A stretch of DNA of 64,000 bases, from assembly GCF_027111275.1 (NCBI RefSeq), contig NZ_CP114286.1:4202501-4266500 (forward strand), read 5' to 3'. This document shows positions 7,830 to 32,687 of the stretch, one piece after another (positions within the stretch are counted from its first letter, which is position 1; each line of letters starts with the position of its first letter). Under the pieces are notes generated by a model that saw only the letters and a program-made list of their open reading frames with translations, did no database searches and was not told where the DNA came from. Position numbers and translations under genes: made by a program. The stretch comes from Flavobacterium luteolum (lineage in GTDB: Bacteria > Bacteroidota > Bacteroidia > Flavobacteriales > Flavobacteriaceae).

Positions 7830-7883
7830 TTTTTTTAGCTTTAAATTAAACAAAAATTCACGGTTATAAAATTACGTCTATTT

Positions 7884-8351: not shown

Positions 8352-8395
8352 GGTTTGTTTTTGGTTTAGATTGGTTGGTTAGATATATTTTGAGT

Positions 8396-9673: not shown

Positions 9674-9698
9674 TATGCTGATGTGCTAAATTTAGTTT

Positions 9699-10085
9699 TT
9701 AGATTTTTATCACTACAGTTCCGCTGATAATGTCATGAATTGCTCTTTTCTTTGAACTCGAAAAAATAGATATAAAAGAAAGCCATCCTAATAATAATTT
9801 GAATGAATATCGAATTATTGCCTGTAAAATATTTATTGATTTTGTTTCGTCTGATTTTTTTCTAATTCTAATGCTTTTAATATTGTTTCCAATTGTTCCT
9901 CCAAAAGTTGTTGCAATAGGTTCATACATAAATAAAGCTATCAATAAAACAGCTCTTAGCCAATCAGGAACATCTTTAAAATTAGATAAAACATCCGAAA
10001 AAATGATCATGCAAGCGATTATTAATACTGAATCAATTAAAATAGATTGTATTCTTTCTAATAAAAAAGGGTATTTTTCTTTCAT
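9699..10085 (-). CDS. RDD family membrane protein
   Basis: A 128-residue protein with three membrane segments and the layout of RDD proteins: an N-terminal ERIQSILIDSVLIIACMII that contains the R..D pattern in the first helix, the second helix near AVLLIALFMYEP, the loop GTIGNNIKSIRIRKK, and the third helix before KKRAIHDIISGTVVI. The family is ill defined; some members affect ion transport or stress tolerance. It lies 25 bases upstream of the antiporter on the same strand, which fits co-expression and, by inference, a shared role in ion homeostasis. Confidence 0.82.
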   Translation of the reverse strand: MKEKYPFLLERIQSILIDSVLIIACMIIFSDVLSNFKDVPDWLRAVLLIALFMYEPIATTFGGTIGNNIKSIRIRKKSDETKSINILQAIIRYSFKLLLGWLSFISIFSSSKKRAIHDIISGTVVIKI

Positions 10086-10218
10086 TGATTTTTTTAACGA
10101 ATATAATTAATTCTCTTTTATGCAGGAACGATAAAAATTTTTGATCAACCCGAATGGAAAATATATTTTATCTTATTTAATGTTCTAATAATGACACCTA
10201 AAAAGGAGTCTGCCATAT

Positions 10219-10320
10219 CTGTCAGGTATGTAAAATGTCATGTTGTCAGATGATTTTTTTGGCACTGACGCAAAACTGACAATTTTATTTGGTTTTTTAT
10301 ATTGGCACAAAGATTGACTT
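10219..10320 (+). promoter_or_regulatory. dnaK regulatory region: sigma54-like -24/-12 promoter and TGTCAG/CTGACA repeats
   Basis: TTGGCACA at 10302-10309 followed by TTGA at 10314-10317 matches the sigma54 pattern (GG, ten bases, then G) except that the -12 GC is GA. It lies 52 bases before the dnaK ATG, which fits a start site near 10328. Upstream are CTGTCAG (10219-10225), ATGTCAT (10235-10241), TTGTCAG (10243-10249), CTGACG (10265-10270) and CTGACA (10276-10281), which could bind an activator. No CIRCE element is seen. Confidence 0.55.
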
Positions 10321-10368
10321 ATGCCACCTGAGTTATTAAAATAAAATCAAAAATTAAATATATAAAAA

Positions 10369-12252
10369 ATGGGTAAAATAATCGGAATTGACTTAGGTAC
10401 GACGAACTCTTGTGTTTCTGTAATGGAAGGTAACGAAGCAGTTGTTATCCCTAACGCAGAAGGAAAAAGAACTACACCATCTATCATCGCTTTTGTTGAA
10501 GGTGGAGAAATTAAAGTAGGTGATCCTGCAAAAAGACAAGCAGTAACTAACCCTACAAAAACGATTGCTTCTATTAAACGTTTTATGGGACACACTTTTG
10601 CTGAAACTACAGAAGAAGCAAAAAGAGTTCCTTACAGTGTTGTAAAAGGTGACAACAATACTCCACGTGTGGATATTGATGGACGTTTATACACTCCACA
10701 AGAATTGTCTGCAATGACACTTCAAAAAATGAAAAAAACTGCTGAAGACTATTTAGGTCAAACAGTTACTGAAGCAGTTATTACTGTTCCTGCTTACTTT
10801 AACGATGCGCAACGTCAAGCTACTAAAGAAGCTGGTGAAATCGCTGGTCTTAAAGTTATGCGTATCATCAACGAGCCAACTGCTGCTGCACTTGCTTACG
10901 GATTAGATAAAAAAGGAACTGATCAAAAAATTGCTGTTTACGATTTAGGTGGAGGTACTTTTGATATCTCTGTTCTTGAATTAGGAGACGGTGTATTTGA
11001 AGTATTATCTACAAATGGTGATACTCACTTAGGTGGTGATGATTTTGACCAAGTTATTATTGACTGGTTAGCTGACGAATTCAAAACTGAAGAAGGAATT
11101 GATTTACGTTTAGATCCAATGTCATTACAGCGTTTGAAAGAAGCTGCTGAGAAAGCTAAGATTGAATTATCATCTTCTGCTGAAACAGAAATCAACTTAC
11201 CATACGTAACTGCTACTGCTTCTGGACCAAAACACTTAGTGAAAAAATTAACTAGAGCTAAATTTGAGCAATTATCTGATTCTTTAGTAAAACGTTCTAT
11301 GGAGCCAGTTGCTAAAGCATTAAAAGATGCAGGTTTATCTACATCTGATATCGACGAAGTAATCCTTGTTGGAGGTTCTACTCGTATGCCAAGAATCGCT
11401 GACGAAGTTGAAAAATTCTTCGGTAAAAAAGCATCTAAAGGTGTTAACCCTGATGAGGTTGTTGCTATTGGAGCTGCTATTCAAGGTGGAGTTTTATCTG
11501 GAGATGTAAAAGATGTATTGTTACTTGACGTAACGCCTCTTTCTTTAGGTATCGAAACTATGGGTGGTGTATTGACTAAATTAATCGAGTCTAACACAAC
11601 TATCCCAACTAAAAAATCTCAAGTATTCTCTACTGCTGCAGATTCTCAACCATCTGTTGAAATCCACGTATTACAAGGAGAAAGAGCAATGGCTGCTGAT
11701 AACAAAACTATCGGTCGTTTCCACTTAGACGGTATTCCACCAGCACCAAGAGGAGTTCCTCAAATCGAAGTAACTTTCGATATCGATGCTAATGGTATCA
11801 TCAAAGTTTCTGCAACTGACAAAGGAACAGGAAAATCTCACGATATCCGTATCGAAGCTTCTTCTGGATTAACAGCTGAAGAAATCGAAAAAATGAAAAA
11901 AGATGCTGAAGCTAACGCTGATGCTGACAGAATTGCAAAAGAAAGAGCTGAGAAATTGAACGAAGCTGATAGTACTATCTTCCAAACTGAATCTCAATTG
12001 AAAGAGTTAGGAGATAAATTGACAGACGATCAAAAAACAGCTATCGAATATGCTTTAACTGAATTGAGAATGGCTCACCAATCTCAAGATCTTGATGCAA
12101 TCCAAAAAGGATTAGACAATGTAAATGCAGCTTGGAAAACAGCTACAGAAGCAATGTACGCTCAAGGAGGTGAAGGACAACAAGCTGCTCCACAACAAGA
12201 GCAGTCTTCTGGAGATAACGTTGAAGACGTTGAATTCGAAGAAGTAAAATAA
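10369..12252 (+). CDS. dnaK: Chaperone DnaK (Hsp70)
   Basis: The Hsp70 chaperone, 627 residues, full length. The ATPase domain opens with [16 protein letters not shown] and contains [33 protein letters not shown] and [14 protein letters not shown]; the interdomain linker [16 protein letters not shown] follows, then the substrate-binding domain and a C-terminal tail ending in [11 protein letters not shown]. It refolds and prevents aggregation of proteins with DnaJ and GrpE, which are not encoded next to it. The long 5' region with a sigma54-like promoter points to stress control. A strong terminator follows, so it is probably monocistronic. Confidence 0.98.
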
Positions 12253-17802: not shown

Positions 17803-17828
17803 TGCTTTCAGTTTAAGTTTTTTGTCAG

Positions 17829-17836
17829 TATCTTTG
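17829..17836 (+). promoter_or_regulatory. Putative -7 element for the PUL regulator
   Basis: TATCTTTG matches TAnnTTTG exactly and is 19 bases before the TTG chosen as start of the regulator. If used, transcription starts near 17842, which rules out the TTG at 17822 as the start codon. Confidence 0.5.
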
Positions 17837-17854
17837 AATTTAAAAAATAATATC

Positions 17855-20599
17855 TTGAAATCGATACTTTTTAAATCCGTTTTCTTCTTTTTCATCGCTT
17901 TACAGCTTCAGGCACAAGAATTACTTCCCTTTGTAGAAAATTATAGCAAATCTGATTATCAGGGAGATAATCAAATCTGGAATGTTGTACAAGGTAATGA
18001 TAATGCCATGTATTTTGCTAATAATCACTATTTGCTTCGTTACGACGGAGTAAAATGGGAAAAATATACACTTCCGAACAAAACAATTATCCGATCAATT
18101 CTGATTGAAGGAGACAAAATATACTCAGGTTCTTATAAAGAATTTGGTTATTGGTATAGAAAAGACGGTACTATGCATTATGTTTCGATTACCAAAAATC
18201 TCAGATTATTTGATGAAAAAGATAATGAGGAAATTTGGAAAATTTTCAGGTTTAACGGTTCGCTTTATTTTCAATCGTTTAATGACGTTTTTATTTATAA
18301 CGGAAAAACTATTAAGAAAATTAAATTCCCTTTTCTTATTTCGTATTGTTTTGGTGTAGATAAAAATTTATACGTTGCTTCTGTTAAAGATGGAATTTAC
18401 AGAATGAACGGTAAATATATTGCCAATCCAAAAGGATGGGATATTTTAAAAAATACAGTTGTCCATGCTATCGAAAAGGTTCAAAACACAACTTATATTT
18501 TTACGCAGAAAAAAGGTGTTTTTATTGTAGAAAAAAATGGACTAAGAAGCTGGGAACATCCAATAAACGAAACTTTAAAAGCAGCAACTATCAATGTCGC
18601 TAAATTTGTTAAAAATGATAAGCTGATTATTGGGACTGGAAATCGCGGAATTTTCATTTTAGATTTAAAAAACAACAGCTATAAAAATATCGAGCGCGAT
18701 AATGTTTTAATGAACAATTCGGTTCTCAGTATAGGATTGGATAAAGAAAATGATTTGTGGGTTGGTTTAGATAATGGTATTGCACATGTTGAGGTTAATT
18801 CTCCTATTTCTTTCTTTTACGATAATTCAGGGCTTTTAGGATCTGTATATGCTGTGGCTACAATTAATAAAGGATATTTAATTGCATCCAATCACGGTAT
18901 TTTTGAATACAGTGCAGGAAAATTTAATATGATGCCGAATACGCAAGGCCAGGGTTGGAATATCTCTCTAATTGACGGAAAATATATTATAGGTCATAAT
19001 GACGGCACTTTTTCATACGAAAATGGTACTTTGACGAAAATAAATGGTGTCAGCGGTGGCTGGAACATGTCTAAAAGCAGTATTAATAATACTTATTTTC
19101 AATCTACATATAGTGGCATTCTGGTTTATGATGATCCTTCAAATATGTCTCATTATAAGATTATCAAGGATCTGGCAAAACCCATAAAGTATGTTGCTCA
19201 AAACAAAAAGAATGAAATTTGGGCAGCCGATAATTATCGCGGTTTATATCGTGTTTTGCTAGATGATAATTATAATACATTAAAAGTTGAAAATGTCACA
19301 CAGCAAAGCAAAATACAAAATGATTTTGGAATAAAGATTTTTGAATTTAGAAAAGAAATCCTTTTTCTAATTAATAACTCTTGGTATACGTACAATTCTA
19401 TATCTAATAGATTGGAGGAAAATGAACTGTTCAATACAAATTTTAGAAATGTAACAGATGTAGTTTCGATAGATGAAGATCATTTCATGGTTTTGCAAAA
19501 CGGAATCTTGTATCATATTTATGCACAAGGAAACAAATTTGTCTGGAATATTATTCAGGAGAAATATTATAAAGGAAAATTGATTAATGAGAATCTAAGA
19601 ATTTTCAAAAAAGACAATTATTATTTGTTTAATCTGGATGACGGATTTATATCTCTTAAACTTGAGTATGAAAATAAACAAAATTCGGGAGTAAAAGTTG
19701 AAGCATTTAGTAATGGTGTTTTAGTTCCGAATGATGAAAAAATTAAATTCAATACTGAATTGCAGATTAATGTAATTTCTGGAATTTACGGAGCAAGTAA
19801 ACCTAATTTATTTTACAAGCTAGATAAGGAAAAAGATTTTGTTCCAATTTCTGACGGATTAATCGTTTTGAATAATTTGGGAAGTGGTTATCATACGGTA
19901 GAAATTTTCAAACATGATGGTGCTACTTATGACAAAGTTTCTTTCTATAAATTTAAAGTTGCCGAACCATGGTATTTTTCTTTCTGGATGATTCTGCTAT
20001 ATTTTCTTGTTGTTGGAGCAGTTTTATTTTTCTACTATAAATGGAATAAGCTTCGTTATATGCAAAAACTGAAATTGCAGGCAGAGGAATTAAAACATCA
20101 GAGAGAAATTCTTGAAATGGAATTGAAGAAAGAAAACGAACTTAATATCCAAGAATACGAAAAACACATTTTAGAATTAGAATTGCAGGCAAAATCTTCG
20201 GAAGTAGCAGGTAAGTCACTATCTATTGCCAAACAAACTGAGATGATAGATAAAATTCAAGGTATTTTGGAAAGTGAAAAAGACTTTAGTAAACTTAAAA
20301 ATGAAATTAGAAAAGCAATAAAGATTAATGAAGTAAATAAACACGAATGGGAAACATTTGAGACCAATTTGAACCAAATTCATAATGAGTTTATTATTAA
20401 TCTATCAAAAAAATATCCGCATCTAACTCCAAAGGATATTAAACTATGTGTTTACCTTAAAATGAACCTTTCTTCTAAAGAAATTGCTCCTATGATGAAT
20501 ATCTCTTTTAGAGGTGTAGAATTACACAGATATCGTCTTAGAAAGAAGCTAAACCTTACTCAAGACGAAAACCTATCAAAGTTTTTATTAACTCTGTAA
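17855..20599 (+). CDS. Membrane-spanning sensor/regulator: beta-propeller, Y_Y_Y domain, LuxR-type HTH
   Basis: A 914-residue one-piece sensor and regulator. In order: a signal peptide (KSILFKSVFFFFIALQLQAQ), a long propeller-like periplasmic part with repeats such as LWVGLDNGIAHVEV and IWAADNYRGLYRV, a Y_Y_Y-like domain, one membrane helix at about 708-730 (FWMILLYFLVVGAVLFFYY), a coiled coil at about 735-800, and a C-terminal HTH (LSSKEIAPMMNISFRGVELH). It has no histidine kinase, unlike hybrid two-component PUL regulators. The position before susC suggests that it senses the glycan and drives the locus. No ATG is available near the signal peptide; I use TTG at 17855. Confidence 0.8.
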   Translation: MKSILFKSVFFFFIALQLQAQELLPFVENYSKSDYQGDNQIWNVVQGNDNAMYFANNHYLLRYDGVKWEKYTLPNKTIIRSILIEGDKIYSGSYKEFGYWYRKDGTMHYVSITKNLRLFDEKDNEEIWKIFRFNGSLYFQSFNDVFIYNGKTIKKIKFPFLISYCFGVDKNLYVASVKDGIYRMNGKYIANPKGWDILKNTVVHAIEKVQNTTYIFTQKKGVFIVEKNGLRSWEHPINETLKAATINVAKFVKNDKLIIGTGNRGIFILDLKNNSYKNIERDNVLMNNSVLSIGLDKENDLWVGLDNGIAHVEVNSPISFFYDNSGLLGSVYAVATINKGYLIASNHGIFEYSAGKFNMMPNTQGQGWNISLIDGKYIIGHNDGTFSYENGTLTKINGVSGGWNMSKSSINNTYFQSTYSGILVYDDPSNMSHYKIIKDLAKPIKYVAQNKKNEIWAADNYRGLYRVLLDDNYNTLKVENVTQQSKIQNDFGIKIFEFRKEILFLINNSWYTYNSISNRLEENELFNTNFRNVTDVVSIDEDHFMVLQNGILYHIYAQGNKFVWNIIQEKYYKGKLINENLRIFKKDNYYLFNLDDGFISLKLEYENKQNSGVKVEAFSNGVLVPNDEKIKFNTELQINVISGIYGASKPNLFYKLDKEKDFVPISDGLIVLNNLGSGYHTVEIFKHDGATYDKVSFYKFKVAEPWYFSFWMILLYFLVVGAVLFFYYKWNKLRYMQKLKLQAEELKHQREILEMELKKENELNIQEYEKHILELELQAKSSEVAGKSLSIAKQTEMIDKIQGILESEKDFSKLKNEIRKAIKINEVNKHEWETFETNLNQIHNEFIINLSKKYPHLTPKDIKLCVYLKMNLSSKEIAPMMNISFRGVELHRYRLRKKLNLTQDENLSKFLLTL

Positions 20600-20843: not shown

Positions 20844-23800
20844 ATGAAAAATTTTATTTTTAGCTTTTTAGCGCTCTTGCTGCTGCCTACCTATATGATG
20901 GGGCAAGCTCAAGCAATTAAAGGAAAAGTAGTAGACAGTAATGGAATGGGAATTCCAGGAGCAATTATCGCTTCAGCTGATGCTAGAGCAACTGCAGATG
21001 CAGATTTCGACGGAAACTTTACAATTAATGCAAAACCTGGAGACATTTTAAAAATCTCTATGTTAGGTTTTGATTCGGTTTCTGTACCGGCAACTGCCGC
21101 ACCAATGACAATAACCTTAAAAGAAGCAGGTGATACTGCTTTAAAAGAAGTAGTTGTAATTGGATACGGTACAAGAAAGAAAATTGATAATACTTCGGCG
21201 GTTAGCTCGATTAAGTCCGAAGAGATTACCAAAATGAAAGTAATGAATGCCTCTCAGGCTATTCAAGGTAAAGCTGCAGGGGTTCAGGTGTCTACTTCAG
21301 ATGCGCCAGGAAGTACGCCTTCAGTTGTGATCAGGGGAGCTGGTACTGCATTAGGAGGAAGAAATCCTCTTTATGTTGTAGACGGTATGCCTACTGACAA
21401 TATTAATAACATTAATACTAATGATATTACATCTTATGAAGTTTTAAAAGATGCTTCTTCATTAGCGATTTATGGTACAAGAGGTGCAAATGGTGTAATT
21501 ATGATTACAACCAAAGCAGGAAAAGGTAAGCTTACTGTTGATGTAGAAAGTTTTGCAGGAATTAGAACTCCACTAAAAACTGTAAAAATGGCAAATGCTG
21601 AGGAGTATGTTCGTTACAGTAATGCTGCTTATAGCAATGATTTTCCTCAAGGAAGATTTTCTGCAAATCAGCCATATAACACAAATTGGCTAGATGCGAT
21701 CACAAGAACAGGATCTTATACTCAAAATAACATTGCAATTTCAGGATCTTCAGACAATGTAAAATACTTTTTTAGTGCTGGAAATTATGAAGAAAAAGGA
21801 ATTTTGAACGGATCTGATTATGGACGTACAACTTTTAGAAATAACAACGAATTTAAACTTTCTGAGAAAGTTAAAATTAGCCAAAATTTCAGTGTAAGTA
21901 GCATTAAAAATACGCCAATGCCTTTGAGCGCTTTTACTAATGCTTACAGACAATCTCCTTTAGTTCCTGTTCGTTATGCTGATGGAAAATATGGAGTTCC
22001 ATTTATTTCTAATGGAGTTGTGGCAGAAACAGGATCATCATTTAATAATGTTGCAAATCCAGTGGCTCAATTAGATTATACAAATGAGCAGCAGCAATCG
22101 GTAACTTTACAAGGGGGATTAAAATTAGATTGGGATATTTTTAAATCTTTGAAATTCACATCACAATTTAATGGGGAATATTATACTTACAAACAATATA
22201 ATTATGTAGACAATTTAGCACTTTGGCTTTCTGCAGACCCTACTCGTATAGCTTCTGGTTATCCTTCAGATTTGAATAAAAACACTTTAACAAGAGGTAG
22301 AGACGAATATTTTAACTGGAACTTGTCTAACTATTTAACGTATAACAAAGTTTTTGCTGAAATTCATGATGTTGAAGTTACTGCAGGTATTGAAGCAAAT
22401 GTACAAGGAACTAGAGAAAAGTTAACGATTGATAGAAAGAATGTAAATGCAAATTCAAATTATTGGTCTTTAAAAGATGTTAACGTTGCAGGTAATGTTA
22501 CAGGTTATAAAGATGAAGCACTTAATCAAAGAAGATTAGCATCTTATTTCGCTCGTTTTCAATATAAATTGATGGACAGATATTTGGTTACAGGTACTGT
22601 AAGACGTGACGGTTCATCTCAGTTTGCTGAAGACAAACGTTGGGGAACTTTTCCATCAGTTGGTTTAGGGTGGATCATTTCTAAAGAAAGCTTCTTAAGC
22701 AATGTAGAACCAATTAATTTATTAAAAATTAGAGGTTCTTGGGGTAGATTAGGAAATCAAAATGTGCCTCTTAATACACAATTATTAACTTCTGGACTAG
22801 ATTATTCTGGTTTAGGTTCTGGTACTACAATTAATTCTCAGGTAGATCCTAATTTATCTTGGGAGATTGTTGAAGAACTTTCAGGAGGTTTTGATTTTGA
22901 ATTGCTTAATAGCAGATTAAAAGGGTCATTTGATTTGTATGATAAAAACACAAACAATACAATTTTGAATGTTAAGCCTTATTCAACTTCTGGAATTACG
23001 CTAGCTACGCCAGCGCATGTTGGAGAAGTGTCAAATAAAGGATACGAGATCTCTTTACGTTGGGATGATAAAATAAACGATAATTTAAGTTATTGGATTG
23101 GAGGGAATTTTTCTCATAATAAAAATGAACTTACAAGCCTTAAAAATGTTCAGTTAAATCCAATTATTGGAGGAAGTTTAGGAAACGGTCAAAATACCAA
23201 AATTCTAGATAACACTTCTGTAGGTCAGCCATTGGGTAGTTTCTTTATGTATGAATATGCAGGAGTTGACCCAACAAATGGCCAAATGTTATACTACAAA
23301 GCAGATGGTTCTAAAGTTGCTCAATCAGGTTTAGATGAACTTAAAGATAAAAAATACGTTGGTTCTCTTTTACCGACTTCTAACTATGGTGTTACTTTAG
23401 GAGTAAATTACAAAAACATTGATTTTTCTGTTGACGGTTACGGAACTGGCGGAGCAAAAGTATACAATGGAAAAAAAGCACAAAGATTTGGAGGAGAAAA
23501 TGTAGAAGCTTCTATGGCTAATGGCTTTTGGACGCCTACAAACACTACATCTTCAATTCCAGCACCTTCTAATTTAGTTCCTTATGCTTCAACATATTAT
23601 TTAGAATCTGCGGACTTTTTTAGAATCAATAATATTACGTTAGGATACAAACTTCCACTTAAAGAAGATCAGTTTTTAAGCTATTGCCGTCTTTATGTAA
23701 ACGCAATGAATCCATTTATCACACAAAAATTCTCTGGGTTCTCACCAGATGTTGTGTCTGATGGTAAGTTAGTTGAAGGCACTCAAGGGGTTGAATTAGA

Positions 23801-23852
23801 TGCTTATCCATCATTGAGATCATTTGTTGTTGGTGTTAATTTAAAATTTTAA
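20844..23852 (+). CDS. susC-like: SusC/RagA-type TonB-dependent outer-membrane transporter
   Basis: A 1002-residue outer-membrane glycan importer. It has a signal peptide (MKNFIFSFLALLLLPTYMMG), a CarboxypepD_reg-like domain at about 24-105 (IKGKVVDSNGMGIPGAII), the SusC linker and TonB-box region (LKEVVVIGYGTRKK), a plug domain (about 115-230, with VVIRGAGTALGGRNPLYVVDG) and a 22-strand barrel to the C-terminal Phe in VGVNLKF. It takes up oligosaccharides together with the SusD lipoprotein encoded 4 bases downstream, driven by TonB. The specificity cannot be read from the sequence; the neighbours suggest a beta-glucan. Confidence 0.95.
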   Translation: MKNFIFSFLALLLLPTYMMGQAQAIKGKVVDSNGMGIPGAIIASADARATADADFDGNFTINAKPGDILKISMLGFDSVSVPATAAPMTITLKEAGDTALKEVVVIGYGTRKKIDNTSAVSSIKSEEITKMKVMNASQAIQGKAAGVQVSTSDAPGSTPSVVIRGAGTALGGRNPLYVVDGMPTDNINNINTNDITSYEVLKDASSLAIYGTRGANGVIMITTKAGKGKLTVDVESFAGIRTPLKTVKMANAEEYVRYSNAAYSNDFPQGRFSANQPYNTNWLDAITRTGSYTQNNIAISGSSDNVKYFFSAGNYEEKGILNGSDYGRTTFRNNNEFKLSEKVKISQNFSVSSIKNTPMPLSAFTNAYRQSPLVPVRYADGKYGVPFISNGVVAETGSSFNNVANPVAQLDYTNEQQQSVTLQGGLKLDWDIFKSLKFTSQFNGEYYTYKQYNYVDNLALWLSADPTRIASGYPSDLNKNTLTRGRDEYFNWNLSNYLTYNKVFAEIHDVEVTAGIEANVQGTREKLTIDRKNVNANSNYWSLKDVNVAGNVTGYKDEALNQRRLASYFARFQYKLMDRYLVTGTVRRDGSSQFAEDKRWGTFPSVGLGWIISKESFLSNVEPINLLKIRGSWGRLGNQNVPLNTQLLTSGLDYSGLGSGTTINSQVDPNLSWEIVEELSGGFDFELLNSRLKGSFDLYDKNTNNTILNVKPYSTSGITLATPAHVGEVSNKGYEISLRWDDKINDNLSYWIGGNFSHNKNELTSLKNVQLNPIIGGSLGNGQNTKILDNTSVGQPLGSFFMYEYAGVDPTNGQMLYYKADGSKVAQSGLDELKDKKYVGSLLPTSNYGVTLGVNYKNIDFSVDGYGTGGAKVYNGKKAQRFGGENVEASMANGFWTPTNTTSSIPAPSNLVPYASTYYLESADFFRINNITLGYKLPLKEDQFLSYCRLYVNAMNPFITQKFSGFSPDVVSDGKLVEGTQGVELDAYPSLRSFVVGVNLKF

Positions 23853-23856
23853 AATT

Positions 23857-25320
23857 ATGAAAAGAATATATATATCAATGTTTGTGCTTTCTGGATTATT
23901 ATTATCTGGTTGTTCAAATGATTTTTTAGATGTAGAGCCAAGTGAGGCTATTCCTGCTGATCCAGCTTTGGTCAATAGTGATGAAGGAGCTAAAAGTTTT
24001 GTAACAGCAATCTACAATCAGTTTTTAGGTTGGGAAATGTCTTCTTTTGGATGGAATGCGGTTTCAAGTATAATCTCAGATGATGCTGATAAAGGATCAG
24101 ATCCTGGAGATACAGGGGGAGATAAAGATATTGTAGACGCATTGACATATAATGCTTCAACTCCATCATTTGAATCTACTTGGAATGCAAATTATGCTGG
24201 AATTAATAGATGTAATCAAGCATTAGCAATGTTTCCTAAATTAGATCAGGCATCACCAGATTTGAAAGCAAGATTAGTTGGGGAAACAAAATTCATGAGA
24301 GCTTTTATGTATTTTACTTTAGTTAAAGGATACGGAGGAGTTCCTATTGTAGATCATTTAGCTACAGTTCCAATTTCTGAGGAAGATAGAAAAATGCAAT
24401 TGACACGTAAATCAGTAGCAGAAGTTTATGCTTTTATAGAACAAGATTTAAATGATGCTATTGAAGCTTTGCCTTTAAAATCTGCCTACACTGGAGCAGA
24501 TGTTGTTAGGGCTTCTAAAGGAGCGGCGTATGCTTTATTAGCAAAAGTAAACCTATATCAAAAAAATTGGCAAAAAGTAATTGACAATTGTGATAAAGTA
24601 ACAGGTTACTCTTTAGTTACCGATTATGCATTACAATTTAAAAAAGAAGGAGAATTTGGTCCAGAATCTATTTTTGAAATTAATGGAGTAGGTTCTACTT
24701 CTAGCCCTGGATTTGGAATTGGAAATTATACTGTTTCTCAAGCGCCTCGTGGTGCTGGAGGTTGGGGTTGGGGATTCAATACACCAACTAAAGGTTTAGC
24801 AGATGCTTATGAAGCTGGAGACGTTAGAAAAGATGCTACAATTATTTTTAGAGGTTCAGTTTTATATGACGGAAGAATAGTGGCATCAACTGTAGCTAAT
24901 CCAAGATACAATTATAAGGCATATTCATCATCTTTCTATAATCAAGAATTTACAGACACTAATCTTAGATATTTAAGATATGCTGAAGTAATTTTAATGA
25001 AAGCTGAGGCATTAAATGAATTAGGAGAAACATCAGCAGCTATTCCTTTGGTAAATCAGATTCGTAAAAGAGCTGGTTTAGGAGATACTCCTTATACTTC
25101 ACAGGCAGATATTAGAAAAGCAATTTATAAAGAAAGAAGATTAGAATTTGCTTTTGAGCACGACAGATGGTTTGATATTGTTAGAACTGGGCAAGCAGAA
25201 GCGGCTATGGCTGCAGATGGAAAAACTTTTATTGTTGGAAAACATGAGTTATGGCCTATACCAACTTCATTCTTGAGAGAAGCAAATGGGCTTTCTGAAC
25301 AAAACCCTGGTGGTTATTAA
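23857..25320 (+). CDS. susD-like: SusD/RagB-type surface glycan-binding lipoprotein
   Basis: A 487-residue lipoprotein with the lipobox LLSGC near residue 19 and the typical SusD start (CSNDFLDVEPSEAIPAD). The N-terminal TPR-like helices (for example NRCNQALAMFPK and LVGETKFMRAFMYFTLVKGYGGVPIV) and the C-terminal SusD domain ending in WPIPTSFLREANGLSEQNPGGY are complete. It caps the SusC barrel at the cell surface and binds the incoming glycan. It follows susC by 4 bases. A long hairpin lies between it and the glucanase gene. Confidence 0.95.
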   Translation: MKRIYISMFVLSGLLLSGCSNDFLDVEPSEAIPADPALVNSDEGAKSFVTAIYNQFLGWEMSSFGWNAVSSIISDDADKGSDPGDTGGDKDIVDALTYNASTPSFESTWNANYAGINRCNQALAMFPKLDQASPDLKARLVGETKFMRAFMYFTLVKGYGGVPIVDHLATVPISEEDRKMQLTRKSVAEVYAFIEQDLNDAIEALPLKSAYTGADVVRASKGAAYALLAKVNLYQKNWQKVIDNCDKVTGYSLVTDYALQFKKEGEFGPESIFEINGVGSTSSPGFGIGNYTVSQAPRGAGGWGWGFNTPTKGLADAYEAGDVRKDATIIFRGSVLYDGRIVASTVANPRYNYKAYSSSFYNQEFTDTNLRYLRYAEVILMKAEALNELGETSAAIPLVNQIRKRAGLGDTPYTSQADIRKAIYKERRLEFAFEHDRWFDIVRTGQAEAAMAADGKTFIVGKHELWPIPTSFLREANGLSEQNPGGY

Positions 25321-25333
25321 TCAAAATCTTAAA

Positions 25334-25368
25334 AATCACTTCCTTCAGATTTCCTGAGGGAAGTGATT
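25334..25368 (+). other. Intercistronic hairpin between susD and the GH144-type gene
   Basis: AATCACTTCCTTCAG and CTGAGGGAAGTGATT pair over 15 positions with one G-T pair, around the loop ATTTC. No T run follows (ATTATTTACC), so it is more likely an mRNA-stabilising or processing structure that raises susCD over downstream genes than a full terminator. Confidence 0.75.
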
Positions 25369-25396
25369 ATTTACCAAAAAATCTTAAATTTTTATA

Positions 25397-26776
25397 ATGG
25401 TTAGAATTTCAGTTTTATTTTTAGCTTTTGCTTTTTTTAGTTGTGGATCAAAGGAAGATAAGTCAAAAGAAAATGTACAGGAAAATACTTCTGGCGTTAC
25501 TGCATTAACAGATGAGCAGCTTTTAGATGCTGTTCAAAAACAAACATTTAAATATTTCTGGGATTATGCAGAACCAAATTCTGGATTAGCTAGAGAGCGT
25601 TATCATCCTGACGGAGTTTATCCTGAAAATGACTCAAATATCGTAACTACAGGTGGTTCAGGTTTCGGATTAATGGCTCTTGTTTCAGGAATGTCTCAAG
25701 GATATATTACTAAAGAACAAGGTGTAGAACGTCTTAACAAAATTGCAGATTTTTTAGGCAAAGCTGATCGTTTTCACGGAGCATGGCCACATTGGATGGA
25801 CGGAAATACAGGAAAAGTAAAGCCTTTTGGAACCAAGGATAATGGTGGAGATTTAGTTGAAACCTCATTTTTGGTTGCAGGAATGATTACGGTTCGTGAA
25901 TATCTTAAAGATGGTTCTGAAAAAGAAAAAGCAGTAGCTCAAAAATTCGATGCACTATGGAAAGGTGTTGATTGGCAATGGTACACCAACAATAAAAATG
26001 TGTTGTACTGGCACTGGTCACCAAACTACGCTTGGCAGATGAATTTTCCTTTGCGAGGATATAACGAATGCCTTATTACGTACGTAATGGCAGCGTCTTC
26101 GCAAACACATACAATCGATGCGAAAGCATATCACGAAGGTTGGGCGAGAAGCGGCGGTATAGTTTCTTCAAAAACAAAATATAATATTCCACTTATTTTA
26201 AAGCACAATGGTGCAGAAGAATTTGGTGGTCCATTATTTTGGGCTCATTATTCTTATGTAGGTTTAGATCCAAACCATTTAACAGATAAATATGCTAATT
26301 ATTGGGATTTAAATGTAAATCAGACTAAAATCAATTATGAGTATTGTGTTCAAAATCCAAATAAAAATGCAGGTTATGGTCCAGAATATTGGGGTCTAAC
26401 AGCTTCTTATTCAAGAAATCCTGACGGTTCTATTGGATACAATGCACACATGCCAAGCAACGATCAAGGTGTGATTTCTCCAACAGCAGCAATCAGCTCA
26501 ATTGTTTACACGCCAAAAGAATCTATGGCCGTAATTAGAAATTTATACGAAAATCATAAAGAAGAAACTTGGGGAGATGCAGGTTTTTATGATGCTTTGA
26601 GTTTAGGAAATAAGTGGGTTGCAAAACGTTATTTAGCAATAGATCAAGGTCCTGAAGTTGTAATGATCGAAAATTATAGAACAGGATTGATATGGAAATT
26701 GTTTATGAACGCGCCAGAAGTAAAACAAGGTTTAACAAAACTTGGATTTAAATCTGGAAAATACAGACTTCAATAA
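25397..26776 (+). CDS. Glucoamylase-domain lipoprotein, GH144-type (endo-beta-1,2-glucanase candidate)
   Basis: A 459-residue lipoprotein with the lipobox FFSC at about 13-16 and a single (alpha/alpha)6-type glycoamylase domain (PF10091-like). Conserved-looking stretches are TFKYFWDYAEPNSGLARER, TTGGSGFGLMALVSG, WPHWMDGNTGKVKPFG, GGDLVETSFLVAGM and FWAHYSYVGLDP. Members of this domain family include the GH144 endo-beta-1,2-glucanases of Bacteroidetes, and their usual partner is a GH3 enzyme, which is present two genes downstream. The activity on beta-1,2-glucan is inference from family and context. It lies 76 bases after susD and 5 bases before an esterase. Confidence 0.75.
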   Translation: MVRISVLFLAFAFFSCGSKEDKSKENVQENTSGVTALTDEQLLDAVQKQTFKYFWDYAEPNSGLARERYHPDGVYPENDSNIVTTGGSGFGLMALVSGMSQGYITKEQGVERLNKIADFLGKADRFHGAWPHWMDGNTGKVKPFGTKDNGGDLVETSFLVAGMITVREYLKDGSEKEKAVAQKFDALWKGVDWQWYTNNKNVLYWHWSPNYAWQMNFPLRGYNECLITYVMAASSQTHTIDAKAYHEGWARSGGIVSSKTKYNIPLILKHNGAEEFGGPLFWAHYSYVGLDPNHLTDKYANYWDLNVNQTKINYEYCVQNPNKNAGYGPEYWGLTASYSRNPDGSIGYNAHMPSNDQGVISPTAAISSIVYTPKESMAVIRNLYENHKEETWGDAGFYDALSLGNKWVAKRYLAIDQGPEVVMIENYRTGLIWKLFMNAPEVKQGLTKLGFKSGKYRLQ

Positions 26777-26781
26777 TTGAC

Positions 26782-27495
26782 ATGAAATACAAATTAGCTT
26801 TTTTATCTTTTTTGCTTTCACTTTTAGGCTTTAGCCAGAGTGAGGTAACTGGAAAAATTAATACCGTCATAATGGCAAAGTATGAACTTGGCTATGTTTT
26901 GCATAAACCGGCAAATACAAAAGAGAAAAAGCCTTTGATAGTTTTTATTTCTGGAGATGGAGAAAAAGGAACTGATCTTGAGAAAGTAAAAATTAATGGA
27001 CCTTTAAAATATTTAAAGACTCATCAATTAGATGCTTACGTTCTTGCTCCACAATGTAAAGAAGATGAAAACTGGGATATAGAATCAATTTACCAGCTCA
27101 TTCTAAAAATTCAGAAAGAGAATAAAATTGATTCAGAAAGAATATATGTTACTGGTTTGAGCTCAGGAGGTTGGGCTTCTTGGAATTTGGCTTTTGCACA
27201 TCCAGATCTATTTGCCGCAAATGTACCTGTCGCTGGCTTTGTAGATTTGATTCAGTTAGAAAAAGCATGTGAAATTGCCAATATTCCAACCAGGATTTTT
27301 CATGGATTACTCGATGATGTGGTAAATGTGAATTATGCAATCACGATTTACAAAGAATTAAAAAAATGTAATGCTAAAGATGTGAAGCTGACCATTTTTG
27401 ATGATGCAGGTCATGACAGCTGGACAAAAGTATATGATAATCAAGAAATCTATGACTGGATGTTGCAGCAAAGAAAAACGAATACAAACAAATAA
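26782..27495 (+). CDS. Exported alpha/beta hydrolase (esterase-like)
   Basis: A 237-residue alpha/beta hydrolase with signal peptide MKYKLAFLSFLLSLLGFSQ. The nucleophile elbow is GLSSGG in YVTGLSSGGWASWNLAF, the acid probably is in LLDDVVNVN, and the His is in FDDAGHDSW. It resembles the short poly(3-hydroxybutyrate)-depolymerase/feruloyl-esterase-like group that often sits in PULs and removes ester groups from glycans. It lies 5 bases after the GH144-type gene and 10 bases before the GH3 gene, so it is certainly co-transcribed. A role in deacylating a substituted glucan is inference. Confidence 0.8.
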   Translation: MKYKLAFLSFLLSLLGFSQSEVTGKINTVIMAKYELGYVLHKPANTKEKKPLIVFISGDGEKGTDLEKVKINGPLKYLKTHQLDAYVLAPQCKEDENWDIESIYQLILKIQKENKIDSERIYVTGLSSGGWASWNLAFAHPDLFAANVPVAGFVDLIQLEKACEIANIPTRIFHGLLDDVVNVNYAITIYKELKKCNAKDVKLTIFDDAGHDSWTKVYDNQEIYDWMLQQRKTNTNK

Positions 27496-27505
27496 ATAGA
27501 ATAGA

Positions 27506-29806
27506 ATGAAAAACAAATTAGTCTTACTTTTTTTAGGATGCGCTGTTTTGGGTTATGCTCAAAAAAAGCCAGCTAAAAATACAGTGAAAATTAAACCAAA
27601 GTCTGAATTTGTGGCGGAATTAATGTCAAAAATGACTTTAGACGAGAAATTGGGTCAGTTAAACTTGCCAACATCTGGTGATATTACCACTGGGCAGGCA
27701 AACAGCTCAAATGTGGCAAAAAATATTGCTGAAGGAAAAGTGGGCGGTTTGTTCAACATTAAATCAGTTCAAAAAATTAAAGAAGTACAGAAAATTGCGG
27801 TTGAAAAAAGCCGTTTAAAAATTCCGTTGCTTTTTGGTATGGATGTTATTCACGGTTACGAAACAACATTCCCAATTCCGTTAGGATTATCTTGTACTTG
27901 GGATATGGGTTTAATTGAAAGAAGTGCTCAAATCGCTGCAAAAGAAGCAAGTGCAGACGGTATCAACTGGACATTCTCTCCAATGGTAGACATTTCTCGT
28001 GATCCAAGATGGGGAAGAGTTTCTGAAGGTTCAGGAGAAGATCCATATTTAGGAAGCCAAATTGCAAAAGCAATGGTTAATGGTTACCAACAGCACGATC
28101 TTACTAAAAATAACTCAATCTTAGCTTGTGTTAAACACTTTGCATTATATGGTGCTCCAGAAGGAGGACGTGATTACAACACAGTTGATATGAGCCACAT
28201 CAGAATGTTTAATGATTATTTTCCTCCTTACAAAGCTGCAGTTGATGCAGGTGTAGGTTCGGTTATGGCTTCTTTCAACGAAGTTGACGGAATTCCAGCA
28301 ACTGGAAACAAATGGTTAATGACAGATGTTTTAAGAAAACAATGGGGTTTCAAAGGTTTTGTAGTAACAGATTTTACGGGAATTCCTGAAATGATTCCTC
28401 ACGGAATGGGCGATTTACAGCAAGTTTCAGCTTTAGCATTAAACGCTGGAGTTGAAATGGATATGGTTGGAGAAGGTTTCTTAGGAACTTTGAAAAAATC
28501 TTTAGATGAAGGAAAAGTAAAAATCGAAACAATCGATAACGCTGTAAAACTTATTTTAGAAGCAAAATATGATTTAGGATTATTCCAAGATCCATATAAA
28601 TATTGTGACGAGAAGAGAGCAAAAACTGAAATCTTTACAACAGATAGCAGAAAAGAAGCACGTGATATTGCAGCTCAATCTTTAGTTTTATTAAAAAACC
28701 AAAATCAGTTGTTGCCTCTTAAAAAATCTGGAACAATTGGTTTAATCGGACCATTGGCAGATGCTAAAGAAAACATGCCAGGAACTTGGAGTGTGGCTAC
28801 AAAAATGGAAAATGCTGTTTCATTATTGAGAGGTATCAAAGAAGTAGCTGGAACAGGAACTAAAGTTTTATACGCAAAAGGAAGCAATTTAGATTACGAT
28901 GAAACTTTTGAAACTAATGCGACAATGTTCGGTAAAACGTTACACCGTGATGCTCGTACAAAAGAAGAATTATTAGCAGAAGCTTTAAAAGTAGCTGAGC
29001 AGTCAGATGTAATTGTGGCAGCTTTAGGAGAATCTGCAGAGATGAGCGGTGAATCTAGCAGCCGTACAAACTTAGAAATTCCACAAGCGCAAAAAGATTT
29101 ATTAAACGCTTTATTAAAAACTGGAAAACCAGTTGTTTTAGTTTTATTTGACGGACGTCCGTTAGTAATTACAGACGAAGAAAAAACAGTTCCTGCAATT
29201 TTGAATGTTTGGTTCGCAGGTACAGAAGCTGGTTGCGCTATTGCTGATGTTTTATTTGGAGATGTTAATCCTTCAGGAAAATTAACTTCAACTTTCCCAA
29301 GAAGCGTTGGACAATTGCCAATTTACTACGCGCACAAAAATACAGGAAGACCACTTTCTAACACAGAAGGGAAATTCGAGAAATTTAGATCAAATTATAT
29401 TGACGAAAGAAACGAGCCATTATTCCCATTCGGATTTGGTTTAAGCTATACCAATTTTGATTATTCAAACTTGAAAATTTCTTCCGATAAGATGGATTCA
29501 AACGGAAAATTGAAAGTAACTGTTGATGTAACAAACACTGGAAATTTTGACGGAAAAGAAACAGTTCAATTGTACATTAGAGATTTAGTTGGTTCAGTAA
29601 CAAGACCAGTTAGAGAATTGAAGGGTTTCCAAAAAATAGCACTTAAAAAAGGTGAAAAACAGACAGTGAGTTTTGATATTACTGTTGAAGATTTAAAGTT
29701 TTATAACTCTGATTTACAATTCGTAGCAGAGCCAGGGCAGTTTGATATTTTCGTTGGAGGAAATTCAAACGCCGATAAGAAAGTTAGTTTTGAGTTAACT
29801 AAATAG
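27506..29806 (+). CDS. bglX: GH3 beta-glucosidase
   Basis: A 766-residue exported GH3 enzyme with all three usual domains: the TIM barrel (about 36-380, with GMDVIHGYETTFPIPLG and KHFALYGAPEGGRDYN), the alpha/beta sandwich (about 400-620) and the C-terminal FnIII domain. The nucleophile is Asp289 in GFVVTDFTG, where most relatives have SDW or SDY. The probable acid lies in SAEMSGESSSR at about 515. It releases glucose from the non-reducing end of beta-glucans. Next to a GH144 enzyme it may prefer beta-1,2 (sophoro-) oligosaccharides. A terminator follows. Confidence 0.92.
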   Translation: MKNKLVLLFLGCAVLGYAQKKPAKNTVKIKPKSEFVAELMSKMTLDEKLGQLNLPTSGDITTGQANSSNVAKNIAEGKVGGLFNIKSVQKIKEVQKIAVEKSRLKIPLLFGMDVIHGYETTFPIPLGLSCTWDMGLIERSAQIAAKEASADGINWTFSPMVDISRDPRWGRVSEGSGEDPYLGSQIAKAMVNGYQQHDLTKNNSILACVKHFALYGAPEGGRDYNTVDMSHIRMFNDYFPPYKAAVDAGVGSVMASFNEVDGIPATGNKWLMTDVLRKQWGFKGFVVTDFTGIPEMIPHGMGDLQQVSALALNAGVEMDMVGEGFLGTLKKSLDEGKVKIETIDNAVKLILEAKYDLGLFQDPYKYCDEKRAKTEIFTTDSRKEARDIAAQSLVLLKNQNQLLPLKKSGTIGLIGPLADAKENMPGTWSVATKMENAVSLLRGIKEVAGTGTKVLYAKGSNLDYDETFETNATMFGKTLHRDARTKEELLAEALKVAEQSDVIVAALGESAEMSGESSSRTNLEIPQAQKDLLNALLKTGKPVVLVLFDGRPLVITDEEKTVPAILNVWFAGTEAGCAIADVLFGDVNPSGKLTSTFPRSVGQLPIYYAHKNTGRPLSNTEGKFEKFRSNYIDERNEPLFPFGFGLSYTNFDYSNLKISSDKMDSNGKLKVTVDVTNTGNFDGKETVQLYIRDLVGSVTRPVRELKGFQKIALKKGEKQTVSFDITVEDLKFYNSDLQFVAEPGQFDIFVGGNSNADKKVSFELTK

Positions 29807-29825
29807 TTGGTTTATTTGATTAGTG

Positions 29826-29854
29826 AAAAGCCCTTCGTTTGGAGGGCTTTTTTT
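29826..29854 (+). terminator. Rho-independent terminator after the GH3 gene
   Basis: AAAAGCCCTTC and GGAGGGCTTT pair with a T run after them, 20 bases after the GH3 stop. It closes the susCD-GH144-esterase-GH3 unit. Confidence 0.82.
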
Positions 29855-29898
29855 CTAAAAGGAATAACCTTTTTTGTGATTTTTTAACTACGATTATT

Positions 29899-30672
29899 AT
29901 GAATAAATTAAAAATATTTAGTTCAGCATGCCTTATTGCTTTTTCATTTTGTAATGCACAAAAGAATGCCATTGTAGCGCATCGAGGTGCATGGAAAAAA
30001 AACAATCTACCTGAAAATTCTATTGCATCTTTAAGACATGCAATCGATTTAAAATTGCCAGGTTCAGAATTTGATGTTTGGAGAACGGCAGACGATTCAC
30101 TTGTAATCAATCACGATGCACATTATAACAAACTGCTTATTGAAGAAACGAATTATGCAGATTTGATAAAATTTAAACTTTCAAACGGAGAAAAGCTTCC
30201 AACACTTCATGAGTACATTTCAGAAGGAATGAGAAATAACAAGCACACACTTTTGGTTTGCGAAATCAAGCCTTCAGAAATCAGTAAAGAAAGAGGACAA
30301 AAAACGGGTGTAGCAGCAGTCGAAACCATTAAAAAATTAAAAGCCGATAAAAATACCTGCTACATCAGTTTTGATTATGATATTCTAAAGAAAATTAGAG
30401 AAATAGATTCTAAGACGTCTTTACAATATTTAGAAGGAAATAAATCTCCAAAAGAAGTCAAAGCAGATAAAATCAATGGTGTAGATTATCATTATTCAGT
30501 CTTTCAAAAGCATCCAGAATGGATTCAGGAAGCTAAAGACAATAAGATTATTCTAAATGCTTGGACTGTCAATGACGCAAAAGATATGGATTGGATTATA
30601 GCTCATAAATTCAATTACATCACCACAAATGAACCTGAACTTTTAAAGGAAAGAAAAGAGGTTAAAAACTAA
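29899..30672 (+). CDS. Exported glycerophosphodiester phosphodiesterase
   Basis: A 257-residue GDPD with signal peptide (NKLKIFSSACLIAFSFCNAQ). The catalytic signature is complete: VAHRGAWKKNNLPENSIAS, SEFDVWRTADDSLVINHDA (the E-x-D metal site and the second His), and the later VCEIKPSE and INGVDYHYS. The enzyme hydrolyses glycerophosphodiesters to sn-glycerol-3-phosphate and an alcohol. I start it at ATG 29899 because the frame upstream runs into the terminator. It lies between two glycoside-hydrolase genes, which is unusual and supports action on a phosphoglycerol-substituted glycan. Confidence 0.9.
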   Translation: MNKLKIFSSACLIAFSFCNAQKNAIVAHRGAWKKNNLPENSIASLRHAIDLKLPGSEFDVWRTADDSLVINHDAHYNKLLIEETNYADLIKFKLSNGEKLPTLHEYISEGMRNNKHTLLVCEIKPSEISKERGQKTGVAAVETIKKLKADKNTCYISFDYDILKKIREIDSKTSLQYLEGNKSPKEVKADKINGVDYHYSVFQKHPEWIQEAKDNKIILNAWTVNDAKDMDWIIAHKFNYITTNEPELLKERKEVKN

Positions 30673-30703
30673 TCTTCTAAAACTTTACTAAAGAAATCTA
30701 ACC

Positions 30704-32620
30704 ATGAAAAAGATATATAAACAACTTACGCCGATTTTGTTTTCGATGCTTTTCGGAAGTACTCTTTTGGCACAAAATTCTGGTAAAACCGAATGGTTTG
30801 AACCTAGCAGACCCGCAACAACATATTGTAATCCGATAAATATTGGGTACAATTTTACTACTCATAATCACAACGGAATTCCAGAATCACGCCGTTCGAG
30901 CGCCGATCCTGTAATTATTACCTATAAAGGCGAATATTATTTATTTGCTACCAATCAAGCAGGTTTCTTTTGGAGTAAAGACATGTCCGACTGGAATTTT
31001 GTTTACGGAAGTTTTCAAAGACAGCCGGGCGACGATGACCAGTGTGCTCCTGCGGCTTGGGTTGTTAACGACACATTATTTTATGTTGGTTCAACTTGGA
31101 AAAGAGATCATCCGATTTGGAAAACAGCTGATCCAAAATCAGGTAGATGGACACGCCATGTAGATAAAGCAATGCTTCCAACTTGGGATCCTGCAATTTT
31201 TCAGGACGATGATAAAAAAGTATACATGTACTACGGTTCAAGCGGAAAATTACCACTTGTTGGAGTAGAAGTTGATTATAATACTTGGCTTCCAAAAGGA
31301 AATCAGGCTGATTATGCAACTTTGTATAAAGCGACAGAAGTAGAGGATATTCAGAAACCATACGGACAAATTAAAGAAGTTGCCATTTTAGATCCTTCGG
31401 CTCACGGATGGGAACGTTTTGGGCCAAATAATGATATGGAACCTGCACCTTGGGGAAATTTTATTGAAGGTGCTTGGATGACGAAACATAATGGAAAATA
31501 TTATATGCAATACGGAGCTCCTGCAACCGAGTTTAAAGGTTATGCAAATGGAGTTCATGTTGGAGATAATCCGTTAGGGCCATTTACGTATCAAAAACAC
31601 AATCCGATGTCATATAAACCAGGCGGATTTGTAATTGGAGCTGGACACGGAAATACTTTTGCCGATAATTATGGAAATTACTGGAATACTGGAACATGCA
31701 AAATTTCTATTAAAGATCGTTTCGAACGTCGTATAGATATGTTTCCAGCAGGATTTGATAAAGATGATGTAATGTATTCTATTACCGCTTATGGAGATTT
31801 CCCAATTGTATTGCCAACAAGCGAGCGTGATCAGACAAAAGGAGCTTCATCTGGATGGATGTTACTTTCGTATAAAAAGCCTGTTACTGTTTCTTCTTCT
31901 GAGGAATGTATGGAAGTGGAAACGCATAGAATGGATAACGGAGGAAAAAAAGTATATGAGAAGTTTTGTTACGGACCAGAAAATTTGACAGATGAAAATA
32001 TTCAAACCTATTGGTCTGCAAAAACAAGTAATCCAGGCGAATGGCTTCAAATGGATTTAGGACGTCAAATGGAAATAAATGCTTTGCAGATTAATTACGC
32101 AGACCATAAAGCGACGCAGTTTAATAAAGCAATGGATATTTATTATCAATATAAAATATTCATGTCAGATGATGCTCAAAATTGGACTTTGGTGGTAGAT
32201 AAATCTAAAAATGATAAAGATGCACCACATGATTATGTAGAGCTTTCAAAATCGATTAAAGCGCGTTACATTAAAATGGAGAACATTCACAATGCATCAG
32301 GCTTGTTTGCTATTTCTGATTTCAGAGTTTTTGGAAATGGATTGGCTGCAAAACCAAAACCTGTAGCTTCTTTTAAGGTAGACAGAAATAAAGCAGATTC
32401 TAGAAATGCTATGATTTCATGGAAAAAACAGACAGATGCAATTGGTTACAATATTTATTACGGAATTGCTCCTAATAAATTGTATAACAGTATTATGGTT
32501 TACGGTGACAATACATACGATTTTAGAGGTTTGGATAAAGGCACAAAATATTATTTCACAATAGAGCCTTTTAATGAAAACGGAATTGGAACAAAAAATA
32601 AGATTATTGAAGTAAAATAA
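30704..32620 (+). CDS. GH43-like glycoside hydrolase with discoidin and FnIII domains
   Basis: A 638-residue exported protein with signal peptide (to LAQ at about residue 24). The five-bladed propeller covers about 40-370 and carries the GH43 catalytic triad candidates: base Asp in SSADPVI, modulator Asp in TWDPAIF, and acid Glu in FIEGAWM. It is followed by a discoidin/F5-8C (CBM32-like) domain at about 400-540, with MDLGRQMEINALQINYADH, and a C-terminal FnIII domain. The substrate is not clear; GH43 usually cleaves arabinose or xylose linkages. It lies 31 bases after the GDPD gene, so the two are probably one transcript. Confidence 0.82.
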   Translation: MKKIYKQLTPILFSMLFGSTLLAQNSGKTEWFEPSRPATTYCNPINIGYNFTTHNHNGIPESRRSSADPVIITYKGEYYLFATNQAGFFWSKDMSDWNFVYGSFQRQPGDDDQCAPAAWVVNDTLFYVGSTWKRDHPIWKTADPKSGRWTRHVDKAMLPTWDPAIFQDDDKKVYMYYGSSGKLPLVGVEVDYNTWLPKGNQADYATLYKATEVEDIQKPYGQIKEVAILDPSAHGWERFGPNNDMEPAPWGNFIEGAWMTKHNGKYYMQYGAPATEFKGYANGVHVGDNPLGPFTYQKHNPMSYKPGGFVIGAGHGNTFADNYGNYWNTGTCKISIKDRFERRIDMFPAGFDKDDVMYSITAYGDFPIVLPTSERDQTKGASSGWMLLSYKKPVTVSSSEECMEVETHRMDNGGKKVYEKFCYGPENLTDENIQTYWSAKTSNPGEWLQMDLGRQMEINALQINYADHKATQFNKAMDIYYQYKIFMSDDAQNWTLVVDKSKNDKDAPHDYVELSKSIKARYIKMENIHNASGLFAISDFRVFGNGLAAKPKPVASFKVDRNKADSRNAMISWKKQTDAIGYNIYYGIAPNKLYNSIMVYGDNTYDFRGLDKGTKYYFTIEPFNENGIGTKNKIIEVK

Positions 32621-32642
32621 TCTTTATTTAAAGAATACGTAA

Positions 32643-32687
32643 AAGCTCCGATTGCAAATTGAAGAATTTGTAATTGGAGTTTTTTTT
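32643..32687. terminator. Terminator after the GH43-like gene
   Basis: AAGCTCCGATTGCAAATT pairs with AATTTGTAATTGGAGTT around GAAG, followed by a T run. It separates the locus from the peptidase gene. Confidence 0.82.

Follow-up and report, generated by a model that had tools for sequence, protein, structure and literature searches.

The window analysed here is the whole stretch of 64,000 nucleotides from Flavobacterium luteolum (contig NZ_CP114286.1, positions 4,202,501 to 4,266,500), and our subject is a polysaccharide utilization locus (PUL) within it that combines a beta-1,2-glucan core with a gene for a glycerophosphodiester phosphodiesterase (GDPD). The genes susC, susD, GH144, alpha/beta-hydrolase, GH3, GDPD and GH43, seven in all, lie on the + strand, and a SusC/SusD pair with glycan-active enzymes on a single strand marks the locus as a Bacteroidota PUL. 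An earlier reading of the letters made without database searches (the sequence-only reading) had listed these seven genes and proposed that they consume phosphoglycerol- and ester-substituted beta-1,2-glucans. Its positions, families and strand are all borne out by gene calls and by matches above the curated cut-offs of Pfam and NCBIfam (TIGR04056, BglX); a regulator gene directly upstream of susC and a hairpin between GH3 and GDPD are features that it lacked. The genome is a single contig of 5.36 Mb, and the GH144 gene is its sole PF10091 match. The features, by position in the window, are these.

17822..20599, + strand: probable PUL regulator of the locus, a propeller-type sensor with a C-terminal LuxR-type helix-turn-helix (Pfam GerE above cut-off, Reg_prop just below cut-off).
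20844..23852, + strand: SusC/RagA TonB-dependent importer (TIGR04056, 739 bits).
23857..25320, + strand: SusD-like surface glycan-binding lipoprotein (PF07980 and PF14322 above cut-off).
25334..25368, + strand: hairpin of 15 pairs without a long T tail, in the susD-GH144 gap (RNA fold of the gap).
25397..26776, + strand: predicted GH144 endo-beta-1,2-glucanase (PF10091, 260 bits).
26782..27495, + strand: alpha/beta-hydrolase (PF00326, PF02230 and DLH above cut-off).
27506..29806, + strand: GH3 beta-glucosidase, BglX-like (NF011678 above cut-off; E=0 to 3u48 and 5xxl).
29825..29854, + strand: terminator-like hairpin, 12 pairs long and followed by a T tail, in the GH3-GDPD gap (RNA fold; conserved).
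29899..30672, + strand: GDPD, a glycerophosphodiesterase of a glucan-PUL subfamily (PF03009 above cut-off).
30704..32620, + strand: GH43 protein with F5/8 type C (F5/8C) and FN3 domains (Pfam).
32642..32683, + strand: terminator-like hairpin after GH43 (present in 38 of the 52 loci whose GH43-M28 gap is measurable).

Beta-1,2-glucan as the target of GH144 and GH3, and so of the locus, is well supported by the family matches and by the kept acids of GH144, in agreement with the sequence-only reading. The GH144 protein scores 260 bits against a PF10091 cut-off of 27 and aligns through residues 14-457, nearly its full length, with the solved endo-beta-1,2-glucanase 5gzh (E=1.1e-181), which we take to be CpSGL of Chitinophaga pinensis. 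The GH3 protein matches 5xxl, presumably the Bacteroides enzyme BT_3567 and used here as the reference for GH3 action on sophoro-oligosaccharides, with E=0 and 1095 bits, and 3u48 and three further entries score above it. By spacing, D148, D152 and E155 of the GH144 protein, which sit in a DNGGDLVE stretch identical to CpSGL, are the counterparts of the acidic residues D135, D139 and E142 named for that enzyme (PMC12102758); the activity of the window protein is predicted from sequence. Read by eye, GH144 and SusD have lipoprotein-like signals, Cys-containing in GH144, and the remaining enzymes have signal peptides. The GH144 protein is probably a surface lipoprotein.

GH144 was found in 137 of 299 Flavobacterium genomes. 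Sixty chosen loci of the genus have GH3 in 57, GH43 in 47, the esterase in 41 and GDPD in 21, and 40 chosen loci of other genera (scored by tblastn at E<=1e-10) have GH3 in 27, the esterase in 19, GH43 in 9 and GDPD in 1. From these counts, GH144 and GH3, often with an esterase, form a recurrent core to which GDPD is accessory, being nearly fixed in one Flavobacterium clade. A regulator homologue is present in 30 of the 60 Flavobacterium loci, whose sequence stretches cover its place in part. The alpha/beta-hydrolase has a Ser-Asp-His triad (S127, D178, H211) invariant in 6 sequences and is probably a periplasmic acyl esterase. This hydrolase, the esterase of the sequence-only reading, is not peculiar to this locus, since the similar hydrolases of the 19 other-genus loci (22-42% identity, and possibly including other hydrolases) show it to be recurrent in GH144 loci.

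The PUL type is already known; the GDPD addition and its predicted role are new as far as the open PMC literature shows. GH144-containing PULs are among the abundant PULs of Bacteroidetes, with a sulfatase added in marine strains (PMC6499787), and a cluster of susCD, GH3 and GH144 is described in Maribacter (PMC8072126). Compared with the former, the window locus shares the GH144-containing PUL and adds GDPD and GH43 as a second unit. The phosphodiesterase search that PMC6499787 describes relied on PF00149 and PF01663 rather than PF03009, and was directed at loci lacking known CAZymes.

Some GH144 loci have compositions of their own. In L076, L080, L083 and L088 (L numbers are loci and G numbers genomes), GH144 of 58-62% identity adjoins GH3 of 92-96% and GDPD of 82-88%. 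Because the identity of GH144 is low where that of GH3 and GDPD is high, the locus seems to be a mosaic in which the SusC-SusD-GH144 part was exchanged among species and GH3-GDPD-GH43 retained. L073 (G120, 6746-11311) encodes a 1521-residue protein with a GH144 domain, an alpha-L-fucosidase domain, DUF5077 and a secretion tail, and frames of 1425-1486 residues in G280, G243, G102, G079 and G052 match GH144, as judged by length and GH144 match alone.

Two transcription units are probable, susC to GH3 and GDPD-GH43, a layout that, like the gene families, catalytic residues and conserved neighbourhood, is read from the sequence. All 58 loci whose GH3-GDPD gap could be measured have a comparable hairpin there (59 sequences tried), versus 96 of 580 shuffled gaps; by eye, its stem is kept, its loop is variable, and some stems have paired changes. 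No such hairpin was found in the GH144-esterase (0/54), esterase-GH3 (0/53) or GDPD-GH43 (0/58) gaps, most of which are too short for one. Of 14 measured loci that lack GDPD, 12 also have the hairpin, placed before GH43, so GDPD joined the GH43 side. A single operon from susC to GH43 was considered and rejected as unlikely in view of the conserved hairpin. The genes all adjoin on the + strand, in line with the sequence-only reading, but the hairpin probably divides them, and the pairing of esterase and GDPD as one transcriptional package is not supported, since the hairpin groups GDPD with GH43. The hairpin in the susD-GH144 gap is possibly a processing or attenuation site. The Bacteroidetes -33/-7 promoter motif, in its consensus form, appears in 1 of 59 stretches preceding GDPD and 2 of 43 preceding susC, compared with 34 of 1180 random stretches.

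The GDPD matches PF03009 with 86 bits against a cut-off of 23.6. Its residues H28, R29, E57, D59, H72 and E122 are invariant in 13 sequences, and we take them, in line with the description of GlpQ (PMC7086022), to be the metal and catalytic residues. With GlpQ of B. subtilis (5t91) the window protein shares the Pfam family and the core catalytic residues, but the match is weak (E=1.9e-4) and spans residues 24-77 only; it is not a close full-length relative. The best solved relative is 7wwc, the GDPD domain of a glucanase (E=1.1e-74). This belongs with 7ww4 to a GDPD-GH16 fusion of Pedobacter terrae, whereas the window GDPD is a separate gene beside GH144 and is not fused to GH16. According to PMC12448869, no publication accompanies the P. 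terrae structure; that paper ties 7WWC to another enzyme at one place and to the P. terrae glucanase at another. Two further GDPD genes of the genome match the Pfam model better than the locus gene does; they branch far off in the tree, and the locus GDPD as a mere housekeeping copy was rejected on that ground. Elsewhere, a GDPD copy at G049:C21:42521-43288 has one in-frame stop and is possibly a decaying gene.

A GDPD homologue at E<=1e-30 is present in 67 of the 299 genomes of the Flavobacterium survey. Fifty of 51 GDPDs of >=75% identity are encoded on the same strand as GH144 and 2.4-3.3 kb downstream of it. The sole exception, on a 6.6 kb contig of G297, is a real one because the GDPD there is flanked by an aminotransferase and an aldo/keto reductase. 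Approached from the other gene, GDPD is near 39 of 46 GH144 genes of >=80% identity. When named genomes were scanned with a GDPD alignment, the best 80 of 572 confirmed places comprised 58 in Flavobacterium and 22 elsewhere. In each of the 58 Flavobacterium loci, GDPD has GH144 and GH3 as neighbours, so the association within the genus is not chance.

The 22 other loci among these best 80 have GH144 beside GDPD in 4 (L180, L188, L189, L190), GH16 in 10, and, in L187, a member of the 1,2-beta-oligoglucan phosphorylase family (SOGP) with GH3 and GH35. The remaining 7 have another partner or none recognised, including a sulfatase (L174), GH2 (L184) and GH3 (L186, L192). GDPD also stands beside GH144 in G443 (L217), outside Flavobacterium. 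In G443, L180 and L189 it begins 0-20 bp after GH144 or the esterase, counted to the start codon used. A draw of 395 genomes across the phylum gave 43 with GDPD, 32 of them outside Flavobacterium; in 8 of these 32, frames of 505-534 residues have a GH16 match beside GDPD. On a tree built from 84 GDPDs, the distribution of the GH144 label takes 5 changes, of which well-supported branches force at least 4. Since the G297 exception accounts for one of the 5, three to four separate recruitments of GDPD to GH144 loci are likely, with gain and loss not surely distinguishable. The Flavobacterium GH144-type clade nests near the GH16 fusions, with weak support for its exact position.

Other relatives keep different company. 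GDPDs lie near GH2 with an exo-beta-D-glucosaminidase-type Ig domain (L097, L099, L184), GH20 (L097, L099) and a SASA esterase (L099, L184), possibly another kind of decorated-glycan locus, and the layout of L098 resembles them.

The GH16-linked relatives provide a connection to glycerol. Four GDPD relatives of 516-543 residues (L095, L100, L101, L194) are GDPD-GH16 fusions with both domains recognised by Pfam, and that of L100, the one compared, matches 7ww4 of P. terrae over its length. Of 21 GH16-linked loci, 10 have an Exo_endo_phos gene nearby. In L100 the order on one strand is regulator-SusC-SusD-fusion-phosphatase-GH3-glpD-glpK-glpF; in L194 the genes run glpK-glpD-glpF-fusion, and 8 bp separate glpF from the start of the fusion; and in G396, G400 and G517 glpD-glpK-glpF is immediately upstream of the regulator. 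Since the GDPD tree sets L194 apart from L100, G396, G400 and G517, at least two origins of the linkage between GDPD and glp genes are likely. In the five loci L100, L194, L237+L259, L238+L260 and L247+L261, GDPD is contiguous with glpD, glpK and glpF, is GH16-fused in 4 of 5, and has Exo_endo_phos in 4 of 5; these look like loci for a glycerophosphorylated beta-1,3-type glucan with their own glycerol pathway.

Among 299 Flavobacteriaceae surveyed for the fusion, with 4 candidates scored per genome, at least 10 genomes have it in full length, and GlpK at E<=1e-120 is present in 134. GlpK occurs in 7 of 10 fusion genomes (the set of at least 10) and on the same contig in 6, in all 6 at 6.3-9.1 kb on the same strand, a proximity with a binomial chance of about 4e-12 if kinship is ignored. 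For unfused GDPDs, GlpK is near in G517 and G808 and far off in G818, G759 and G957. The GDPD subfamily plausibly frees glycerol-phosphate from glucans, the best evidence being that the GH16 fusions adjoin glpD-glpK-glpF.

We therefore read the locus as a PUL for beta-1,2-glucan to which, in a Flavobacterium clade, a module for decorated glucan was added; GDPD would there remove glycerol-phosphate or a similar group. We give this reading a probability of about 0.5. GH144 on the cell surface would cut beta-1,2-glucan and SusCD would import the fragments; the alpha/beta-hydrolase would take off acyl groups (succinyl or acetyl), and GH3 would free glucose from the oligosaccharides. The exported GDPD, from the second unit with GH43, would cleave phosphodiester-linked glycerol-phosphate, or something similar, from the glucan or its fragments, which would make complete digestion of the chain possible. 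The natural substrates are likely to be substituted beta-1,2-glucans, periplasmic or cyclic, made by Proteobacteria. The substrate, the action of GDPD on glucan, the acyl group and the localisation are inferred. Such glucans are known to carry succinate, phosphoglycerol and phosphoethanolamine, at positions described as not yet identified (PMC11842490, PMC10514313).

Several observations weigh against this reading. The hairpin conserved in all 58 measured gaps separates GDPD from GH3, its occurrence before GH43 in loci without GDPD places GDPD on the GH43 side, and L188 and L190 have a terminator-like hairpin between GH144 and GDPD. GH43 shares the unit of GDPD and, as the sequence-only reading conceded, stays unexplained by the decorated-glucan idea. 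Seven of the 46 close GH144 genes are without GDPD, as are all but 1 of the 40 loci chosen from other genera. Among the matches listed in the phylum draw, a single one of the 32 non-Flavobacterium genomes with GDPD has it beside GH144 (G443; P 0.16, compatible with chance), and inspection of 20 of these 32 loci revealed no GH144. Genes of the glp set, which adjoin GDPD in the GDPD-GH16 glycerol loci, were not found within about 10 kb on either side of GH144-type loci. The F. luteolum genome has GlpD (59% identity) and no clear glycerol kinase (best match 25% identity). Of the fusion genomes, G726 has GlpK on another contig and G845, G828 and G585 have none, and the neglect of kinship limits the binomial figures.

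The main chemical doubt over GDPD acting on periplasmic glucan is stereochemistry. Phosphoglycerol derived from phosphatidylglycerol is expected on such glucans in the sn-1 form (sn-glycerol-1-phosphate). GlpQ enzymes are strict for sn-glycerol-3-phosphoryl groups (PMC7086022) and reject that enantiomer, but the window GDPD is not a close relative of GlpQ, so this specificity is not transferable to it. The role of phosphoglycerol remover proposed in the sequence-only reading thus draws strength from the repeated recruitment to GH144 loci, the SOGP neighbour and the glp-linked GH16 relatives, and is weakened by the expected enantiomer.

An ordinary beta-1,2-glucan PUL, from susC to GH3, might instead lie beside an unrelated GDPD-GH43 pair whose GDPD, independently of any glucan, scavenges phosphate or glycerol, be it from lipid head groups or from glycerophosphodiesters of other kinds. 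The conserved hairpin fits this, as do the lack of GDPD in 39 of the 60 chosen GH144 loci of the genus and 39 of the 40 outside, and GH43 of >=80% identity without GDPD in 9 of the 60. We nevertheless think it unlikely, if worth serious attention: 50 of 51 close GDPDs adjoin GH144, recruitment is repeated in other families, GDPD follows GH144 or the esterase within 20 bp in G443, L180 and L189, and the two other genomic GDPDs could serve housekeeping.

Another alternative would make the true substrate a heteropolysaccharide, not periplasmic glucan, that includes beta-1,2-glucan stretches, bears acyl and glycerophosphoryl groups, and has side sugars for GH43 to remove. This would give a place to GH43, whose homologues occur in 47 of the 60 Flavobacterium loci and 9 of the 40 others, and whose D68, D162 and E255, which we take to be its catalytic acids, are invariant in 16 of 16 aligned sequences. 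We know of no specificity for this GH43 branch. An alpha-galactosidase-type gene (Melibiase_2) follows GDPD in L217, and a GH144 PUL of Bacteroides xylanisolvens contains a GH35 beta-1,2-galactosidase (PMC11739564). However, the GH43 family is very large (7992 of 8000 scored candidates pass E<=1e-20) and the data indicate no side sugar, and we hold this alternative to be improbable. Cleavage by GDPD of another phosphodiester substituent in place of phosphoglycerol, for example phosphoethanolamine or phosphocholine, would suit the phosphoethanolamine also carried by E. coli glucans (PMC3818809, PMC10514313) and the glp genes not found at GH144-type loci, but is very improbable given that the C2 hydroxyl of glycerol assists GlpQ catalysis (PMC7086022) and that the fused relatives are tied to glycerol catabolism.

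In the open PMC literature we found no GDPD variant of the GH144 PUL, which is not proof of its absence, and no paper joining glycerophosphodiester phosphodiesterase with polysaccharide utilization loci, GH144 with GDPD, or any four of the five topics glycerol phosphate, laminarin, PUL, glycerol kinase and GH16; nor did we find one there on enzymes removing the charged groups of substituted glucans.

More broadly, and tentatively, at somewhat less than even odds, one GDPD subfamily may mark a class of Bacteroidota loci that eat glycerophosphorylated beta-glucans. The beta-1,3-type would have the GDPD-GH16 fusion, a phosphatase-family gene and glpDKF, and the beta-1,2-type, with GH144 as in the window, would target the charged glucans, periplasmic or cyclic, that Proteobacteria make. 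In these bacteria, beta-1,2-glucans of both kinds, when substituted, have roles in osmotic adaptation, symbiosis and virulence (PMC11842490). If the decorated-glucan reading is true, some Flavobacteria feed on such glucans by means of an enzyme dedicated to demodifying them, and the GDPD-GH16-glp loci would indicate phosphoglycerol-bearing beta-glucans as a wider nutrient class and suggest a tool enzyme for their analysis.

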